Positions 14,301 to 23,710 of a DNA stretch of 30,015 bases are shown in pieces. The first letter of the stretch is position 1. Each line of letters opens with the position of its first letter. This stretch comes from a virus: positions 1 to 30,015 of the IMG/VR virus record IMGVR_UViG_3300020219_000053, one strand, 5' to 3'. Made by a program: the position numbers and the translations under genes. The notes under the pieces were generated by a model. That model was not told the DNA's origin. It worked only from the letters and a program-made list of their open reading frames with translations, and did no database searches.

Positions 14301-16167
14301 CCGGATCTGCTTTCATATCCTTATTGAAAAAGTTCGTCAACGTGACTTCTTTTCCTTTATCCGGACCAGAGTCAAATTTAGGATTATTTTTTGTTATGAA
14401 ATCAATGTTTTGTGGAAGAAGCTTCGGTACACCTCCACCCTTCCCGCCAGCTTTTCCGGTAATGGAATCAAATGTCGTGTCGAACGGAGTCACGGGATCG
14501 TAAATCTGATGATCAAAATCTGTGGCTGATGGAGTAAAATTAACCTTGCCTTGCTTAAAATAAGCAGTCATGTCTTCTCCCAGAACACGTAACGTAAACG
14601 CACCGCTTCCGTATGATTGTGGTGCTGATGTTACCAACCCGGCAAAAACATGTGTCCCGGCCTTATCCGTTACGAAATGATGCCTTAGCATCGACCAAAG
14701 ATAATTAGGAAAATCCGATCCAACAAAAACGTCCTTTTCAATCTTGCTGAATCCAGCGTCAGGTTTGAAAAGACTATTTAGACTATCCTTCAATCCATTC
14801 AGTCCCTGACTTACCTTTTGTTGAAATCCAAATGAATTAAAACTTGTCTGGAGACCAGAAAGAATCTTCGTATCTAACTGACTTTTACTATTAATGTATA
14901 CATGGATCTCATCAAGAGGCTGAATTATAGATTTTTGATTATAATGAAGTCTCATCTGCTTTCGTAGCAACGTATTATCTTTATTGAAACTTCTTAATTT
15001 TCTTTCAGTATTGGCTTCGGTGCTGAGTTGGGCGAATATTGAATTCGCAATAGATTTGATAAGATCTTTTTCTTGACCTTTCAAACCTTGATTTCCAAGC
15101 GGCCCTCCAAAATCAGCCGCTGTATCGATATTCGTAACATCACCTATGATGGCTTCACCAAAGTTCCGATTCCCAGGATCCGTATCAAGATTTATCTCTA
15201 TTCCCAATCCGTCGATCAATACTCTTACTTTTTTGCCAAGAAACGTATCCGGCTGAACTATGAATTTGATCGGATTGACACCTCTATTTTTTCTTTTAAG
15301 ATTTAATAGTCTTTTAGTCAGCGCCATGGTGCTGTCGAGGGCACTTTTGCTTAATTGAAAAAATGTACTGCTGTAGAACGGATTTAATGAATCACTGATC
15401 GCACGATCAATGTCTTCATCCGTAATTACAAGGATTTCTAATGGATTGGATAGTGAAAGGCTACAGGAGCCACTTCCCCATTTAATACTAGTGGTGGTTT
15501 CGAGTTGATTTACCGTAGTCAATTCAATCACGCCGGTACCGATTCCGTATGTTGTCTTGAAACTACTGTTTCGGTTAACTACCCATTGTGTAGTGGCGCT
15601 GGTACGATTAAACGCCACTAATTTTCTAATTTTCTCGATTGCTTTTTTTAAACTAGAAGGTTGTTTATTGGGGCTCAAAATAGATGGTGAAAATAAATCC
15701 ACGACATCCGCCGCATCTACCAAGATCGGCAGCATCGCATATTCAACATTGTTCTGAATCTGTGCGATCCTCTCTATCTTGGATAATTTTTCATATGCTG
15801 ATAATTGATTACATTTATTATTAAAAAGAATAGCCGATGCTTTCAAGAACAATTTATCATGCTTATCCATAAGTTCCGTGTTCGTCTGAACACGGAGTGA
15901 TGAAAATTCTCTCTTTTTAACAAGAACCGTAATCTCTGGTTCTTGAGACATGATTTCTAATTGTTTCGGGAGTCTGGAATGTTTTGTAAATCCATTCTCA
16001 AGGTATCTTCGCTCGGCAGATTGATCAAATTTGCCCGCAAAATCCCCGAGCGCGCCGAAACGCTGAGTCGACCCGTCATCGTTGGTCGTATCGAGAGATC
16101 TTAATTTATTATCCGATAGATTAAATTGTTGATCCAGAATACTGCCGAGATTATCAAAAAACGCCAT
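11323..16167 (-). CDS. Giant baseplate hub protein (gp27/gpD-like) with helical insertions
   Basis: This 1614-aa protein is the best hub candidate. Hub-family signatures occur in pieces. Around residues 418-545, DEIHVYINS is followed by VFAGLVTSAPQSYGSGAF and LRVLGEDMTAYFKQGKV. Residues 933-954 have LEVFCDSQGHIQIRPPQYN. Residues 1340-1380 have PGEVVYFE, FYVQSVSHIFTYGSVFK and TTINMSHGHG. Between them are charged helical, coiled-coil-prone insertions near 760-880 and 960-1180. A low-complexity Ala/Gly/Ser stretch lies near 1433-1450, and the C-terminal 150 residues are Pro/Ser-rich. T4 gp27 is about 390 aa and P2 gpD about 390, so this is roughly four times larger. The spike gene follows with no gap. 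No muralytic motif was recognised. Confidence 0.72.
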   Translation of the reverse strand: MAFFDNLGSILDQQFNLSDNKLRSLDTTNDDGSTQRFGALGDFAGKFDQSAERRYLENGFTKHSRLPKQLEIMSQEPEITVLVKKREFSSLRVQTNTELMDKHDKLFLKASAILFNNKCNQLSAYEKLSKIERIAQIQNNVEYAMLPILVDAADVVDLFSPSILSPNKQPSSLKKAIEKIRKLVAFNRTSATTQWVVNRNSSFKTTYGIGTGVIELTTVNQLETTTSIKWGSGSCSLSLSNPLEILVITDEDIDRAISDSLNPFYSSTFFQLSKSALDSTMALTKRLLNLKRKNRGVNPIKFIVQPDTFLGKKVRVLIDGLGIEINLDTDPGNRNFGEAIIGDVTNIDTAADFGGPLGNQGLKGQEKDLIKSIANSIFAQLSTEANTERKLRSFNKDNTLLRKQMRLHYNQKSIIQPLDEIHVYINSKSQLDTKILSGLQTSFNSFGFQQKVSQGLNGLKDSLNSLFKPDAGFSKIEKDVFVGSDFPNYLWSMLRHHFVTDKAGTHVFAGLVTSAPQSYGSGAFTLRVLGEDMTAYFKQGKVNFTPSATDFDHQIYDPVTPFDTTFDSITGKAGGKGGGVPKLLPQNIDFITKNNPKFDSGPDKGKEVTLTNFFNKDMKADPVSKLINQIYYAPSGMVYRWKSGIATLTQTKNTFNPSASIVETVITRTTSDAFAGQDVMNVLSLLLTGEPYNFATFYKNAIQFDSYKTEQTVDASYYRGLLNNLKKNNRLYGNYIPFKRLSIPESQTALAIRTQTDLLNDSSQLESLLRERAILFDRLSMVTSGGVSSGQDGTAQQDSTLVFKVRIKELDEQIGEKQKAVNQAMNSGEKFLSIQGDDISFEVGGLMDTGKSTLTEQSRLRKELRRKLNYLTRRLMYRVKSNDDSNLLIVDDSYDKDYDFQAFSKSVTGNMNDFSSDYSYVGEQINNVAGILDLEVFCDSQGHIQIRPPQYNRVPQSVFYKMFQMKEQLGIQLFPSFLEDLFKNQVKSLVENIEVVEDEIRYYALALGKASDDEVTALINIGGGTFTFVSAQDGKIASLEAIFNEKDPDDKTKVSDSSELVRNLGDLSSSLERQAKNTGSVFNIQKRVSLVSQTSVSNINTFITSSDKLQDRSDAIVNRLTSKTGVAPVQLKSLLVNTDKLKTTSAIDVFKITKEIAGLIGRRQNLVKSAASAVKSMKDTYETTTSGGESNKVTFQNLFTKKDVPEILENMIEDESYDDYGFGSGSRYVIRNRNIISYDFNEKPPGFNMVRVDGLFAEGFADAPGDLSLSKSGGNALTSAYAVDYDLWRMYGLKGTQAVTVPFFSDPDTQCAPYAVSLLNRERGKIFTGSATLVGNEFQQPGEVVYFEPRNILFYVQSVSHIFTYGSVFKTTINMSHGHGLGEYIPTSFDVIGKVLYRNRDQVNQTVYKGPDSGDQKLGTIILAPVGGSVLKSAASGAAGASGATGESGGDQIAADPYGSKNKNILLNIGRSIFSFMTPNSDKVLPTVQIRIFFNSKKGINTVTPELKEAAEFVKKFLTAENSKKATAAFGSSDPPAPALADDSVFLPLPKELVTIEEIDRGKESEPRQPSSFAWDAVNNLNNNSSASSGASSDGIKREKILASSVIDIWLVSE

Positions 16168-17096: not shown

Positions 17097-19241
17097 TTAT
17101 TCTGATCTTCTTGGGATCAGAGACTGTCTCGATTCTACTTCGGCGATGATTTTACCTTTATCATTAACTCTGCCACAATCAATGCACTTCACCTCTAGTT
17201 GTCCAGTGATCTTTAAACTATCGGGAAACTTTACTTCCTGCGCTCCGAGACGTGCCTGATTTTGTCCCGTACCTGCGCCGCCACCCGTACCAACATTTTG
17301 GATCGATCTTACGGTTTTATCCGTAAGAGCCGCGGAGGGAGATTTTTCAGCCGGACGCTGAATCTGTTGCGCTGCCATTTGTTGGTGTTGTTTATGTGTA
17401 ATGACAGGAGGAAGAGGAGCGGTAGTCCTGCCCCGTACCATATCTCTCTTATCCGTATCACCAATACGCGTGATCGTCGGAAGAGGCTTATCTGGACGTG
17501 TGGCTTCGTGGTGTTTCTCTTTTCCACTAATAAAGAGTTTGGCGGTTGCCCCGGCTTCCTTGATTGACGGGAAAAGTCCGCCTTTTTGAGGCGCGGTAGA
17601 ATCTTGTAAAGATGCTCCGACAGCTTGAGTCGCGTCTTGTGATAAACTGTTTAATACTTTTTCAACTATAGGATTGCCTTTTCCAGCAATTACTCCAAGT
17701 ATTCTTGTAATGTTTGCTAATGATTCCTGCTGTATCTTGGTAATACTGGCACTTATGGCCGTGAGTGCGGTTTTTCGATCATCCTGAACATTTTTACCGC
17801 GCTGACTGCTTATTTCGAAAAGATCTTGCTTGCCTCTTACTTCTCCCGTTCCGAGCGTTCCGGTTTTCAACGCATCAAAGAATCTTCCGGCAGACTGCTC
17901 ATCCTTTACCATGGCTCCGAATGGAGTGGATTTTGCTAATGATAATTGTCTTCGGTATTGTGCGGCAGACCTGGGATCCTGTCCGGCTTGTTCAAGAGAT
18001 ACGATATTCCCCCCAAGCTGGCGTTTAAACGTATCCTGAGCCATTTTCATGACTTCATCAAGCTTGTCTTGCCGTATCAGATTATCAATTTTATAAGCGC
18101 CCTGAAGCCCTCCCGGACCTCCGGATCTAGATGAAATGAATGCTTTGCTTCCGGTATCGAGACCCTTAATACCATCCACCATTTCATTAATCAATTTGGC
18201 TGACTGTGTAGATGATAAGCCTATTTCTCTAAATGTTGGACCGAAACGTTGCAGGATATTAAGAGTAGAGTTGGATTGATCTCCAAGCATTCCGAATTTA
18301 TTAGCAACATCCTCAGCTACGGACCTGACATCATTAAATGTTAATTTAGAGAATTCAGATACGGCATTCAGGGCACCTATATATTTAACAGCATTACCAG
18401 CACTCAAGCCCATCTTTTCATAAGCTTCTTTTATTTCTAACTGAACCTTTGGCAATCCTCCGAGAGTCGTGACGGAAACTCTTGTCGCGGCATTCTCAAC
18501 ATCTAATGCTCCGCCCCATTCAGTCATGGAGTCAGATGAACTATTCATGGCTCCCGGAATCTCTCCGATAGTGGATCTTAGTTGATTCAACGATGTAACG
18601 CTGAATCCTGTTGCTAAGGATAAATTCTTTGTTTGTTCTATAAGATTATGAGTTTTATCAGTAAGATTTTGAGAAGAAGCTCCCCCGATATCAAATACGT
18701 CGCTTAGTTGACCACGGGCCACGGCCAATTGAATAAATTGGTCTTCAACGCCTCGGATGGCTTGAGCATTTCTGATCATAAGATCAATTCCATCGGTAAC
18801 TCCGGTGATCATTTTTTCGATCTCCATTCCCACTTCTGGTATATTTCCTGTCAGGCTTGTAATCTGAGTCAACACTCCTTTAATCGGAGCAAAGGTTTCG
18901 GCAGTTGTGACGAATCCTAATTTTGCATCGGTCGCAAAACCTGCAAACGTCTCAGATGCATGTTGGCCAGCAATTGCAGAACTGATAATCGCTTCACCTA
19001 ATTGTTTAACAAGAGTTATAGTGGACTCTATTTTCCCGGGATCAATAAATTTACTTATACTGTCTTTATTATTCTGTACTGTTGATTTTAAGTCAGTTAA
19101 TTGTTTATTAAAGCGATCTGTTTCGGTGCCCGCTTTTTGAGCGTTATTTATGAAGCCTTCCATGGCTTTTGCCAATGCATCAAATCCTGATGGATCCGGT
19201 GCGGTCGGAACCGTGGCAGTAGTTTCGGAAGGATCAGTCAT
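17097..19241 (-). CDS. Tail tape measure protein
   Basis: This 714-aa protein is assigned as the tape measure, which sets tail length, occupies the tube and is ejected with DNA. Support is its position directly after the G/GT-type chaperone pair and before the baseplate hub genes, its largely helical composition with repeated Gln/Ser/Thr-rich amphipathic segments, and a hydrophobic Ala/Gly-rich central region (for example LGEAIISSAIAGQHASETF near 80-98). A Pro/Gln-rich linker precedes a short beta-like C-terminus (LKITGQLEVKCIDCGR) containing a CxxC pair. With the usual approximation of 1.5 angstrom per residue, this predicts a tail of about 105 nm. No lytic transglycosylase or peptidase motif was recognised. 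The ATG lies 11 nt after the GT stop and lacks a strong Shine-Dalgarno. Confidence 0.82.
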   Translation of the reverse strand: MTDPSETTATVPTAPDPSGFDALAKAMEGFINNAQKAGTETDRFNKQLTDLKSTVQNNKDSISKFIDPGKIESTITLVKQLGEAIISSAIAGQHASETFAGFATDAKLGFVTTAETFAPIKGVLTQITSLTGNIPEVGMEIEKMITGVTDGIDLMIRNAQAIRGVEDQFIQLAVARGQLSDVFDIGGASSQNLTDKTHNLIEQTKNLSLATGFSVTSLNQLRSTIGEIPGAMNSSSDSMTEWGGALDVENAATRVSVTTLGGLPKVQLEIKEAYEKMGLSAGNAVKYIGALNAVSEFSKLTFNDVRSVAEDVANKFGMLGDQSNSTLNILQRFGPTFREIGLSSTQSAKLINEMVDGIKGLDTGSKAFISSRSGGPGGLQGAYKIDNLIRQDKLDEVMKMAQDTFKRQLGGNIVSLEQAGQDPRSAAQYRRQLSLAKSTPFGAMVKDEQSAGRFFDALKTGTLGTGEVRGKQDLFEISSQRGKNVQDDRKTALTAISASITKIQQESLANITRILGVIAGKGNPIVEKVLNSLSQDATQAVGASLQDSTAPQKGGLFPSIKEAGATAKLFISGKEKHHEATRPDKPLPTITRIGDTDKRDMVRGRTTAPLPPVITHKQHQQMAAQQIQRPAEKSPSAALTDKTVRSIQNVGTGGGAGTGQNQARLGAQEVKFPDSLKITGQLEVKCIDCGRVNDKGKIIAEVESRQSLIPRRSE

Positions 19242-19252
19242 TGTTTATTAAT

Positions 19253-20214
19253 TCATGAACCTGTCAGGGCTCGGCGTTTTCGTTTCTTTTTTGAAGAAAC
19301 GACGTTAGTTTGATTAGATTCGATAAGTTTACGTGAAAATTCATCGAATTCAGCATCGGTTGATTTGAATGTATTATTATCACGATTCAATAGTTCCCGA
19401 ACTGCCTGTGGATTGATGAAAGATCCAACAGCATAACTGATATCTCGAATATCCTCACCTTTTTCCATCTGATCCTCAACCCAATGCTCAAACATTAATA
19501 GTTTCAGAAGAGGATCCATGTCCTCAAAATATGGATCATCCGGAAGTCTTTGATATGTTTTACTTAAGAACCAGATAAAACGCTGATCTGGTTCCTTAAC
19601 TATTTTTTTATTTCTTCAGCCAATTCTTTCAGATCGGTTTCGGAACTGACCTTAAATCGATCCGATGCTTCTCTCGTCAATGATGCAAATTCAGAATAAA
19701 GCCGCTCAATAAGGCTTTCATCAAATTCATCCAGAATATCCATAACGGCCGAACGATCATTTGTTTCGAGAGCCGTAAATAGATCGTTCCCATCAATCGC
19801 GCATAATGATGTTGCTAATTGCTGTCTACGTAGTTCAAATGTCTGCTGGATCACATCCTGTTGAAGCGATTCAGCTATACATGACCGCATTTCTTTTGAT
19901 TTAAGAGTCCTGAGTGTAAATGTAGTATTTTCGATCCGTACTTCTTTAGTTATTCTTCCGATATTCGCTAGAAATTCTACACGCTGTTTATTATACGGTG
20001 TTATTTTTACTTTTCCGGTTACTTTTTCTTTCCGGGCTGCGGCAATTTCTCTTTCCATTGCAGCATAATCAGCTCGTGATTGACCATACTCTTCGTTAAG
20101 ATCATTATCCTGGCCAGAATTATCCGGAACTTCATAGGTACGTTGAGTCGAGGCTCGGTGCGTAACGGAAGGTGAAAAATTTTTATTTCCGATCGGACTA
20201 TTTATACTTGACAT
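19253..20214 (-). CDS. Tail assembly chaperone GT-type fusion made by -1 ribosomal frameshift
   Basis: The 0-frame chaperone (20214-19600) and the ORF ending at 19253 are joined if ribosomes slip back one base on seven A residues at 19609-19603. After the slip the -1 frame reads IVKEPDQRFIWFLSKTYQ and continues openly into MDPLLKLLMFEHWVEDQM. The product is about 320 aa: 204 shared residues, 28 from the joining segment, and 88 from the downstream ORF. The extension is acidic-helical and ends in a basic tail (KKKRKRR). In lambda and many other tailed phages the equivalent GT protein coats the tape measure and recruits tube protein. Placement between tube and tape measure genes matches exactly. 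The internal ATG at 19519 has no properly spaced ribosome site, favouring frameshift expression. Confidence 0.85.
19568..19609 (-). promoter_or_regulatory. -1 programmed frameshift signal: A7 slippery run plus stem-loop
   Basis: On the sense strand the frame reads ATA AAA AAA TAG, so A_AAA_AAA is a canonical X_XXY_YYZ slippery heptamer immediately before the 0-frame stop. Eight nucleotides later, GAACCAGAT (19594-19586) pairs perfectly with ATCTGGTTC (19576-19568) across a 9-nt loop. Four more outer pairs (TTAA/TTAA) are possible past one bulged G. Spacer and stem size fit known -1 stimulatory hairpins. No U-run follows the stem, arguing against a terminator. Confidence 0.85.
19600..20214 (-). 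CDS. Tail assembly chaperone, G-type (unshifted product)
   Basis: This 204-aa protein lies between tail tube and tape measure genes, the standard place for the G-type chaperone. It has a polar, disordered N-terminus (about 1-60), then a small beta part (KVTGKVKITPYNKQRVEF, TTFTLRTLKSKE) and a helical C-terminal half ending AEEIKK. Its TAG stop directly follows the slippery run of seven A residues, so termination yields this short form and slippage yields the long form. In characterised phages the short form is made in excess. It is probably not part of the finished virion. The start ATG has only a weak purine-rich upstream signal (GAAG). Confidence 0.85.
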   Translation of the reverse strand: MSSINSPIGNKNFSPSVTHRASTQRTYEVPDNSGQDNDLNEEYGQSRADYAAMEREIAAARKEKVTGKVKITPYNKQRVEFLANIGRITKEVRIENTTFTLRTLKSKEMRSCIAESLQQDVIQQTFELRRQQLATSLCAIDGNDLFTALETNDRSAVMDILDEFDESLIERLYSEFASLTREASDRFKVSSETDLKELAEEIKK

Positions 20215-20240
20215 ACTGCCGTTCTTCTTTCTTCAAAATG

Positions 20241-20275
20241 AATCAGGAGAGCTGCATTTCTGCGCTCTCCTGATT
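20241..20275 (-). terminator. Strong hairpin after the tail tube gene, probable intrinsic (leaky) terminator
   Basis: In the 83-nt gap between the tube stop and the chaperone start, AATCAGGAGAGC (sense 20275-20264) pairs perfectly over 12 bp with GCTCTCCTGATT (20252-20241) across an 11-nt loop. The sense strand continues CATTTTG, only a short T-run, so termination may be partial. A leaky terminator here would lower expression of chaperone and tape measure relative to the abundant sheath and tube. It could instead stabilise the 3' end of sheath-tube mRNA. Confidence 0.6.
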
Positions 20276-20297: not shown

Positions 20298-20921
20298 TTA
20301 GAATGGATTACGATTTAAGAAGGCATTGATAAGACCCGGGGCATCCATAGAGCCACGACGACCGCCACGATCCGCTTCACGTTCGATCTCATCATTAAAG
20401 AATACGAGTCCTCGTTCTCCACCCGTTGCGGCATTATTGGCTCCGCCAGCAAAATGGCTCTCAATGCTTTCGCAATCAAAGTGCATTTGTTCAGATATGA
20501 TAAAAGCATCCGCGCCATAACTAGTTTGGATACTATTTATCCACACATTTCGAAGAGTCGTGACGATCGTATTCTCCCCATCTCCTTTAAACGTATCGAA
20601 GATATCAATATCAAACGGATATCGCTGAGCATGCGCGTGTACGTACCCACGGCCAAAAGCCTCGGCAATGCGAAGACGATCAAAACGAATCCGGGTACAA
20701 TTGCCTATAATTTTGACTGAGCCGTTTGGGACGCTATCAACGTTACCATCCGTCCCAACCTCCTTAAGCATATAGATCGCCCGCGTCTCGGTGTAACTGA
20801 TCGTCTGGATCGCGCCGATCGCGTTATTATTAACTTTAACTACAATATTAGTGCTGAGTGCGGTGCCGATACGATTTTTACCGTCGCCCGAATAAAAATT
20901 TGTTCCCGTTTGAGCTGCCAT
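20298..20921 (-). CDS. Tail tube protein (gp19-like)
   Basis: This 207-aa protein is the best tube candidate. It directly follows the sheath gene, as in most myophages, and is beta-rich, with strands such as STNIVVKVNNNAIGAIQTIS, SVKIIGNCTRIRFDRL, and FDIDIFDTFKGDGENTIVTT, followed by WINSIQTSYGADAFIISEQM. This matches the single-barrel hexamer-forming tube fold of T4 gp19-type proteins (163 aa). The extra length is mostly a C-terminal Gly/Arg-rich tail (from about residue 160) ending in FLNRNPF, which may be flexible. GGAGA lies 5 nt upstream of the ATG, one of the better ribosome sites in the window, consistent with high expression. The product forms the conduit for DNA. Confidence 0.8.
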   Translation of the reverse strand: MAAQTGTNFYSGDGKNRIGTALSTNIVVKVNNNAIGAIQTISYTETRAIYMLKEVGTDGNVDSVPNGSVKIIGNCTRIRFDRLRIAEAFGRGYVHAHAQRYPFDIDIFDTFKGDGENTIVTTLRNVWINSIQTSYGADAFIISEQMHFDCESIESHFAGGANNAATGGERGLVFFNDEIEREADRGGRRGSMDAPGLINAFLNRNPF

Positions 20922-20968: not shown

Positions 20969-23710
20969 TTAGAGAACGCCAATCCCGACTTTTATATAAA
21001 TCCAGTTGACAGGATAGATCGGCTGGGCTCTTAGTGAAATGTTCCATTGTCTCGGATCCACCGAATCACGCACAACTTTCAAATCTGCGTATTTCGTTAT
21101 CAATGACCCGGTAAACGAATTAAGCAATCCGATCGCGCGTGATGTCAAGCTTCCCTGAGTCGTATCATCTTCGGGATTACCTACGAACCCATCAAAGCCC
21201 AATCGAAGTGACTTGGCGATCCGGTCACGAATGAAGATGATCGAAATCTCTTCCTCTTCCGGAAATCCGCTATTCGTTGTGGTCTTGCCCTGTATAACCT
21301 TGCCACCACCGGATACCGGCTGAACTACCGTGATGCCGGACCCAACCAACTGCTCCAATACAGTCGGTGAATACCGCTTATCGTTCAGAATAGTTATCCC
21401 GGCTAACGTCTTATTCGTTAGTGGGATCGCAACATTCGGCGTTCCGCAGAAGAACCCTGCGGCAGCCGCGGCCATGTAGAATCCGTCAATCTTTACCCGT
21501 TCTGTCCCGGCCTGCACGACAATCTCATCAGGATACATATACACGGCTCGGAATGTATTTCCGAATGCTGCCCTGACGCTATAGTTGGCAAGGTCTTCCG
21601 TATTTCCAGACAGGATCTCATTAATATCGTCTCCCTGAATACCTTCCAGGACTCCAATATCCTCAACCGCTGCCAATTTTGAGCCCCTGACATTGTCAGG
21701 AGTCAAACCACGAATACCGCCGCAGAACAGAACACGTTCGCGTTTGTTCTTGATATTGCTCATTGTTCTACAGTGAGCAAGTGTGTTCTGAAATATCGCG
21801 CTGATGGTCTGCTTGGGTAGCGGTACCACGATATCAACTTCAACCGTTTCTAGCTTAGCAAGCGTTCCTAACCATCCTGCATCGAAGAAATCAGCGTCCC
21901 GATCATCAATCAGTGTCGTGCGGAGAGACTGTCCTGCCGGTACAACACTCTGATTCACCACTACGAATGAGCCGTTTTTCGTTGTATCGAATACTTCAAA
22001 CGCAACGTTTGTTTCGTCAACAAAGTATTTCTTAATCGTGATGGCGAAGTTATTTCCCGACACCACTCCTGCAATTAGGAATTTGCCATTATTTACTTCA
22101 TTCGAAGACGCGGTGATCTTTACATTTAGTAATGTCAGTCCTGAAATCAAACTAAAGTCAGTCGAGGCACTTCCCAAAACTGCCTTCGTTCCATCAATCA
22201 TATTAGGTGTGATGACACCATCACCAATTGTACTGATGACAGTGCCGGATGAATTAACCAATTGGAACTGTACAGCAGTGGCGGATGTAAAGAGTGGGAA
22301 CCTTACATTGAGTGATCCGCTCGATACTGCCGTTATATCGAATATGCCTTTGTTTACATCATTCGCAACATTAAACTGTTTAATCTTCTTACCTACATCG
22401 GAAGCCGTAAAGGTAAACGATGCACTGGTAAGGGTTGCGTTACCTGGACTTGCTACGGATGAAACCAATGTTCCGTTGGTACCGAATTTAGTTACGAGGG
22501 GTCTCTCGATAACCGTGTAGTAGTAAGCGTAGGTTGTGGTGCTGAAAATAAATGTATTGAGCGATGGCGTGGTGCTGGTATCACCTACCGTAAATAGTGG
22601 ATGTTTGTTCGGAAGAACCTGAGTCTCGATACCCGTCGCGGCATTCGTTGTGAAGAAATGTAGATTTGAATTTACATCTGGTTTCACACCTACCGGAAGT
22701 GGGAATATGTACTCTTCAATATCCGTGCTGGTAGACGATACTGATGTCGAAAGATCAAAAGCAGTACGTCTGGGCAATGCTGGTTTCGTCTGAAGCGTCA
22801 CGACACCCGGAGTAGCGTTGGAGAACGCAATCTGACAGCCAAGTGTTAGATTGTTATCAACGCTTGAAAGTCCATGTTTTTTCGATATATCTTCCATATT
22901 ATCGAAAAATACCGGGTCATTCAGATCGGTAATCGAAATATACGCCGCAGTCAGGGAATCATTGCGAAGCAGAACGCCAGATTCAACTTTAACTTGGAAG
23001 GAATCGCCTTCTTTAAAGTTATTTGAGCCGAAGGTTGGGTTCTGATAAACGCTGAATCTTATAATGCCGTTCGAAACGATATTATTGTCAGATAGCCAGA
23101 CAATTGGGTTTCCATAACCATCAAGTAACGCACCCGAAACTGAACCAAATGCCAAGAACTTGGCCGTTTGGGTCATCGGGGCTCCGTATCCGTCACGCTG
23201 GACCGATACGCATTTGATGGTCCAGGTTTCGGAAGGAGCGTTCAGGTCAACGACGCTGAGATTCTCAATCGTGCCGGAACCAAAATTTGAAGTAGATGGG
23301 AGATAGAATTTACCTCCCAGGTCAACCAAATGGGCAGACTGTAGTTCAATTCTGCCGGTGGCCGGATCTACTCTACAATCGTAAAAATCATCAAACGCAT
23401 TTAGATCTATTTTGGCTTCTAGTAATTTTAGAGGTGAGCCGTTTCGATAAATGATTGTTCTGTTGATTACGTTTGGGAAGAGAGTGAGCTTGAAGTGACG
23501 TCCGTCAGCTCCGCTGGTTGAGGCGTAGGTTGGATTGAAACCATCCAAACCTCCACCCAAAGCTGAACTTACGATTACTTCGGTACGGGCTCCTTCGCCC
23601 ATAATTGCTGCGAGGCGCACGCCTCCCGGAACCGAAACGCCCGACGTTACCGTTTGGACATCTGTATATACTCCGGGAATTGCTCCCGCTGCACCTGGGA
23701 TGTTAGCCAT
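20969..23710 (-). CDS. Tail sheath protein with enlarged middle region
   Basis: This 913-aa protein is a contractile tail sheath. The N-terminus (IPGVYTDVQTVTSGVSVPGG) and the C-terminal domain (from about 635: NTLAHCRTMSNIKNKRERVL, then GFYMAAAAAGFFCGTPNVAI, and finally ISLRAQPIYPVNWIYIKVGI) have the sheath-family arrangement, the last strand being the one that links neighbouring subunits. The region from about 150 to 600 is a large, probably surface-exposed insertion, including two similar segments near 426-490 and 512-585. T4 gp18 is 659 aa, so this is longer than usual. The ATG has a good AGGAAA site about 5-6 nt upstream. Tube protein follows after 47 nt. Confidence 0.88.
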   Translation of the reverse strand: MANIPGAAGAIPGVYTDVQTVTSGVSVPGGVRLAAIMGEGARTEVIVSSALGGGLDGFNPTYASTSGADGRHFKLTLFPNVINRTIIYRNGSPLKLLEAKIDLNAFDDFYDCRVDPATGRIELQSAHLVDLGGKFYLPSTSNFGSGTIENLSVVDLNAPSETWTIKCVSVQRDGYGAPMTQTAKFLAFGSVSGALLDGYGNPIVWLSDNNIVSNGIIRFSVYQNPTFGSNNFKEGDSFQVKVESGVLLRNDSLTAAYISITDLNDPVFFDNMEDISKKHGLSSVDNNLTLGCQIAFSNATPGVVTLQTKPALPRRTAFDLSTSVSSTSTDIEEYIFPLPVGVKPDVNSNLHFFTTNAATGIETQVLPNKHPLFTVGDTSTTPSLNTFIFSTTTYAYYYTVIERPLVTKFGTNGTLVSSVASPGNATLTSASFTFTASDVGKKIKQFNVANDVNKGIFDITAVSSGSLNVRFPLFTSATAVQFQLVNSSGTVISTIGDGVITPNMIDGTKAVLGSASTDFSLISGLTLLNVKITASSNEVNNGKFLIAGVVSGNNFAITIKKYFVDETNVAFEVFDTTKNGSFVVVNQSVVPAGQSLRTTLIDDRDADFFDAGWLGTLAKLETVEVDIVVPLPKQTISAIFQNTLAHCRTMSNIKNKRERVLFCGGIRGLTPDNVRGSKLAAVEDIGVLEGIQGDDINEILSGNTEDLANYSVRAAFGNTFRAVYMYPDEIVVQAGTERVKIDGFYMAAAAAGFFCGTPNVAIPLTNKTLAGITILNDKRYSPTVLEQLVGSGITVVQPVSGGGKVIQGKTTTNSGFPEEEEISIIFIRDRIAKSLRLGFDGFVGNPEDDTTQGSLTSRAIGLLNSFTGSLITKYADLKVVRDSVDPRQWNISLRAQPIYPVNWIYIKVGIGVL

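Follow-up and report, generated by a model that had tools for sequence, protein, structure and literature searches.

Probable −1 programmed ribosomal frameshifting between tail assembly chaperone frames in an uncultivated phage with a contractile tail

Introduction

In phage lambda, the slippery site of the G/GT tail genes is GGGAAAG, and frameshifts in tail assembly chaperone genes more widely were reportedly described by Xu, Hendrix and Duda in 2004. In systems of this kind, little of the fusion is made, and the mature virion contains neither form. In Bacillus phage G, gp181 and gp182 are annotated as tail assembly chaperone, with gp182 being the joined coding sequence. In lambda, the tape measure protein is bound by the short form, whereas recruitment of the tube subunit is the task of the fusion (PMC5009743). 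Conserved −1 frameshifts are also found in the chaperone genes of other contractile-tailed phages (PMC12846349), and an announcement-level prediction tentatively gives AAAAAAA as the slippery heptamer of 13 Paenibacillus larvae phages (PMC6256562). A_AAA_AAA has been documented as a shift site in bacteria: in reporter tests, a seven-A cassette gave about 10% shifting, and tail assembly chaperone genes gave 6–7% (PMC3711429). In E. coli, −1 slippage is weaker on A_AAA_AAA than on A_AAA_AAG; in some bacterial dnaX genes, the zero-frame stop lies directly after the shift site (PMC5009743).

Here, we describe a locus of this type in a virus record of 30,015 bases, the whole of which was analyzed and is referred to below as the window. 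As in the lambda G/GT kind, the site lies between the major tail tube and tape measure genes, and the −1 overlap falls at a heptamer near the end of the first frame.

Results

The tail module and its chaperone ORFs

The minus strand of the window encodes a contractile-tail module made up of a tail sheath gene (PHROG 2839), a gene for a tube-like protein, the chaperone ORFs, a tape-measure-like ORF, and a gene for a baseplate J protein. The upstream neighbor of the cassette encodes a tail tube-like protein of 207 aa (20298–20921, minus strand), a homologue of phage G gp180. The downstream neighbor, named by position and length, encodes a tape-measure-like protein of 714 aa (17097–19241, minus strand) and starts 11 nt past the end of the −1 ORF. 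The sheath gene (20969–23710, minus strand) is long, encoding 913 aa, and the match to known sheath families is confined to the last part of the protein. The gap that separates the tube gene from the chaperone gene contains a long inverted repeat at 20239–20272 (minus strand), ATCAGGAGAGC...GCTCTCCTGAT, without a clear T run; it is possibly a terminator or attenuator, which would lower chaperone expression relative to that of the tube.

The 0-frame ORF (19600–20214, minus strand) encodes 204 aa and is assigned as the short (G-type) tail assembly chaperone. It matched the tail assembly chaperone family PHROG 2792 weakly (E=0.001), and residues 1–53 of the −1-frame extension, the T-type part, likewise gave a weak match to the tail assembly chaperone family PHROG 25000 (E=0.002). 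Profile comparison related the first half to gp181 of Bacillus phage G (E=6e-9) and the extension to the extension of gp182 (E=5e-7), each E-value being that of one single comparison. When the first half was modeled with AlphaFold, pLDDT was above 90 over most of residues 80–190, and among predicted viral structures the fold matched several annotated tail assembly chaperones, including gp181 and gp182 of phage G and one of Rhodococcus phage Finch. By these PHROG matches and profile homologies, both halves correspond to tail assembly chaperones, and the first half also does so by fold.

Other searches gave little. The fold search of the PDB yielded only weak matches with the first half, the best being YqbN (3klu) at E=0.4, and nothing with the extension. 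The protein search of the phage collection with the first half returned no match, and that with the extension returned weak matches to SPO1-like phages and phage G. Matches of the extension to PHROG 1316 (RNA polymerase) were discounted, as they were probably due to its basic tail.

The slippery site and its conservation

The 204-codon ORF ends with GAA ATA AAA AAA TAG, in which the slippery heptamer A_AAA_AAA (19603–19609, minus strand) begins after the first two bases of the codon ATA and adjoins the 0-frame stop TAG (19600–19602, minus strand). An 8-nt spacer, TAGTTAAG, which includes the stop (19595–19602, minus strand), separates the heptamer from a hairpin with a 9-bp stem. The window thus contains a heptamer of the form X_XXY_YYZ followed by a structure within the range of about 5–9 nt downstream. 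Every one of these elements, as given in the original prediction, is present on the minus strand, and the −1 frame is open, as had been stated, for 28 codons into an 88-codon ORF, giving 116 residues after the slip. A second in-phase A_AAA_AAA occurs at 15649 (minus strand) within a gene for a 1614-aa protein; it has no adjacent 0-frame stop and is probably neutral. Readthrough of TAG was rejected, since the 0-frame closes again (TAA) within a dozen codons and the downstream ORF lies in another frame. Within the window, TAG, TAA, and TGA are all in use as stop codons.

The −1 extension and the first ORF each served as queries against viral contigs, and the relatives obtained were reduced to 24 non-redundant sites including that of the window; site counts and quoted probabilities ignore kinship among the phages and serve as guides, not exact values. 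No relatives were found in the bacterial genome collection. The heptamer was exactly seven A in the same phase at all 24 sites, the 0-frame stop abutted it at 22 and followed one codon later at the other two, and the −1 frame was open across the 0-frame stop at 24/24. Only one other in-phase A_AAA_AAA occurred within 5,299 upstream codons of these genes. With relatedness ignored, the choice of A-ending codons was improbable under the genes' own codon usage, at about 10^-6.8 and 10^-8.2. A tube homologue was located upstream of the cassette at every site (24/24), and, where the contigs reach, a long tape-measure-like ORF, homologous or similarly placed, began no more than a few bases after the −1 ORF, the gene order in the relatives being sheath, tube, chaperone, and tape measure.

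Metagenomic contigs and a homopolymer, a typical place for indel errors, might suggest that the frame break arose by a sequencing or assembly error and that the true gene is one unbroken ORF. Such an error is extremely improbable, as the same frame break, heptamer, and 0-frame stop recur in 24 diverged sites from many samples and the frame break is also found in the cultured phage G.

The homopolymer could also act during transcription: the polymerase would add one A to the A7 run, or drop two, and the fusion would arise from ordinary translation of some of the mRNAs. The A run is at the right place for this, and bacterial cases of slippage on such runs are known (PMC5009743, PMC3711429), but seven A falls short of the usual requirement (eight or more, PMC3711429; nine in the examples of PMC5009743). 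Moreover, the run is neither longer than seven nor variable at any of the 24 sites, and its phase, the abutting stop, and the stimulators (stem and Shine-Dalgarno-like element) are of the type associated with ribosomal slippage. Transcriptional slippage is accordingly an improbable source of the fusion.

The −1-frame extension

The −1-frame extension read after the slip (19253–19603, minus strand) has 116 aa and was supported by the PHROG 25000 match, conservation, and pN/pS. The first ATG of the −1 frame is codon 29 (19517–19519, minus strand), inside the conserved domain, and is the start that a gene caller would pick for an 88-aa second ORF. A GAGG lies 2 nt upstream, too close to provide a normal ribosome site. 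At none of the 24 sites does ATG, GTG, or TTG occur in the −1 frame over the stretch from the preceding stop of that frame to the slip.

It could be supposed that the 88-codon ORF is a separate gene starting on its own at the ATG at 19519, with an incidental −1 overlap. Gene callers would report exactly this, and most relatives have ATG or TTG at that point. However, no consistent ribosome site precedes the ATG in the relatives, and the conserved Met is accounted for by a conserved MDP motif. The most conserved residues (EP-RF-W-L) also lie upstream of the ATG: in the relatives, the extension is conserved from residue 1, with the motif I-x-x-E-P-x-x-R-F-x-W-x-L, and its predicted structure opens with a confident helix at residues 5–17. 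Such residues and such a helix ahead of the ATG are what a fused product calls for, and an independent start cannot supply them. In the 16 codons after the slip, which are also ahead of the internal ATG, the −1 frame had a pN/pS of 0.26, and the other two frames had values of 1.24 and 1.50, which indicates purifying selection in the −1 frame only. Two separate genes are therefore highly improbable.

Relatives that have lost the run and kept independent starts would have spoken against a frameshift, and a check for them gave none; the searches began from conserved peptides, and a distant relative without both the site and the peptide would escape them.

Downstream hairpin

The putative stimulatory hairpin of the window (19568–19594, minus strand), which was assigned from folding and relatives, has a perfect 9-bp stem and a 9-nt loop. 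Its arms, GAACCAGAT (19594–19586) and ATCTGGTTC (19576–19568), form nine Watson-Crick pairs, and the stem lengthens to 11 pairs by a G-U and an A-U pair reaching 19596/19566, in which case the spacer is 6 nt. The fold had an energy of −13.8 kcal/mol, with z = −3.5 to −4.3 against dinucleotide shuffles. When compared with synonymous recoding of the same −1-frame peptide, p was 0.073 for the MFE of the whole region and 0.045 for a correctly spaced stem. Taken alone, the stem of the window thus exceeds the expectation from synonymous recoding by a small margin only, since GAACC/TGGTT pairing is already favored by the codons for the conserved E-P and W. A search of Rfam gave no match.

Among the relatives, a contiguous stem whose 5′ arm begins 5–8 nt past the heptamer was clear in about half of the 24 sites, being strong in the window, L006, L015, L018, L019, L023, L033, L042, and others. 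Such a stem was absent at the right spacing from 8/24 sites (L017, L021, L022, L027, L039, L045, L046, and L049). Over the whole set, the stems exceeded synonymous-codon expectation (Fisher combined p = 4e-4). The original prediction had proposed conservation of the A7 run and the stem among related phages as a check; the run is conserved throughout, and the stem is not. The core is the heptamer with the stop, and the hairpin is a variable accessory. Chance is excluded by the combination of elements and their conservation, not by the stem itself.

Upstream Shine-Dalgarno-like element

In many relatives, a Shine-Dalgarno-like (SD-like) element, AAGGAGGT or close to it, was found about 13 nt upstream of the A7 run, instead of or alongside the stem; L045, L046, L049, L023, L028, L029, and L035 carry it. 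An element of −6 kcal/mol or better was present at 15 of the 24 sites versus 9% of background windows, and over the set the element went beyond synonymous expectation (Fisher p = 2e-4). The window has no such stimulator upstream of its own A7 run, the sequence there being AAAGAATTG (−1.5 kcal/mol). The stemless L045, L046, and L049 have some of the strongest SD-like elements, and the overall anticorrelation between stem and SD-like element was not significant (Spearman −0.31, p = 0.15), so that a trade-off between the two is suggestive only.

Discussion

At this locus of an uncultivated contractile-tailed phage, the tail assembly chaperone gene is very probably subject to −1 programmed ribosomal frameshifting that yields G- and GT-type products. 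The original prediction of a −1 frameshift that joins the chaperone ORFs between tube and tape measure is strongly supported by the way in which heptamer, stop, reading frame, and order of genes are conserved over the 24 sites, and by the homology to gp181/gp182 of phage G. Against it stand the slight excess of the window's stem over synonymous recoding, the eight sites that have no contiguous stem at the right spacing, and the weaker slippage on A_AAA_AAA than on A_AAA_AAG in E. coli. We infer the slippage itself, its rate, its ribosomal nature, and the chaperone role of the products.

In the proposed mechanism, most ribosomes would make the 204-aa chaperone and terminate at TAG. In a minority, the stop next to the heptamer and the stem beyond it would cause a pause, and the lysine tRNA would re-pair one base back on A_AAA_AAA, the next codon read being ATA (Ile). 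Reading would then continue for 116 residues to give a 320-aa fusion (204 + 116), with the predicted junction peptide EEIKKIVKEPDQR. Lambda gpG/gpGT suggests, by analogy, that the short form coats the tape measure protein and that the fusion recruits tube subunits.

A more speculative and rather doubtful extension of this model is that the core (the A7 run and the abutting 0-frame stop) is fixed and the stimulators turn over by lineage, as stem, SD-like AAGGAGGT, both, or neither, with release at the abutting stop as the main setter of the ratio of short to long chaperone. The phage family is a natural series in which the slippery core is fixed and the stimulators vary, which is useful for testing how a frameshift ratio is kept constant as the signals change. 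In addition, an essential tail assembly protein can now be annotated correctly in its second half, the conserved start of which gene callers would cut off, in a group of large uncultivated phages.

Among known systems, SPO1L1 was considered as a direct parallel and rejected: its homologue of the extension is in the +1/−2 frame relative to gp21, and gp21 has no detectable homology; for these two reasons, it was left out as evidence for the same shift. In the gp21/gp22 region of SPO1L1 (L011, 4001–4429), the frame homologous to the extension runs over the last part of gp21 and comes before the point at which gp22 is annotated to start; this may be an unannotated frameshift of another direction.

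E. coli dnaX resembles the window in its A-rich slippery heptamer and downstream stem loop; its upstream SD-like stimulator has counterparts in some relatives but not in the window, and the gene is unrelated. The heptamer tentatively given for the Paenibacillus larvae phages is AAAAAAA, as in the window, a likeness by description and not by sequence. The original prediction had presented the A7 run with the abutting stop as distinct; this holds against GGGAAAG of lambda but not as something new, since phage G has A_AAA_AAC_TAG and AAAAAAA is reported for the Paenibacillus larvae phages (PMC6256562).

The window differs from lambda in its contractile tail and in having A_AAA_AAA with an abutting stop rather than GGGAAAG, and the likeness between them is one of arrangement, not of sequence comparison. 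What the two share is a −1 shift close to where the gene for the short chaperone ends, ahead of the tape measure gene, with short and extended forms (PMC5009743). In phage G, as in the window, the cassette lies between tube and tape measure, the shift is −1, and a 0-frame TAG adjoins the heptamer; both halves are homologous by profile comparison, and the first half also by predicted fold. The phage G heptamer is A_AAA_AAC (TTA AAA AAC TAG in the DNA at the join) and differs from that of the window in the last letter, its first half is shorter (115 aa) and its extension longer (252 aa), and its downstream stem has 5 bp and is weak (z about −1.1) versus 9 bp in the window. The signal is thus another case of a widespread and already known kind of phage frameshift.
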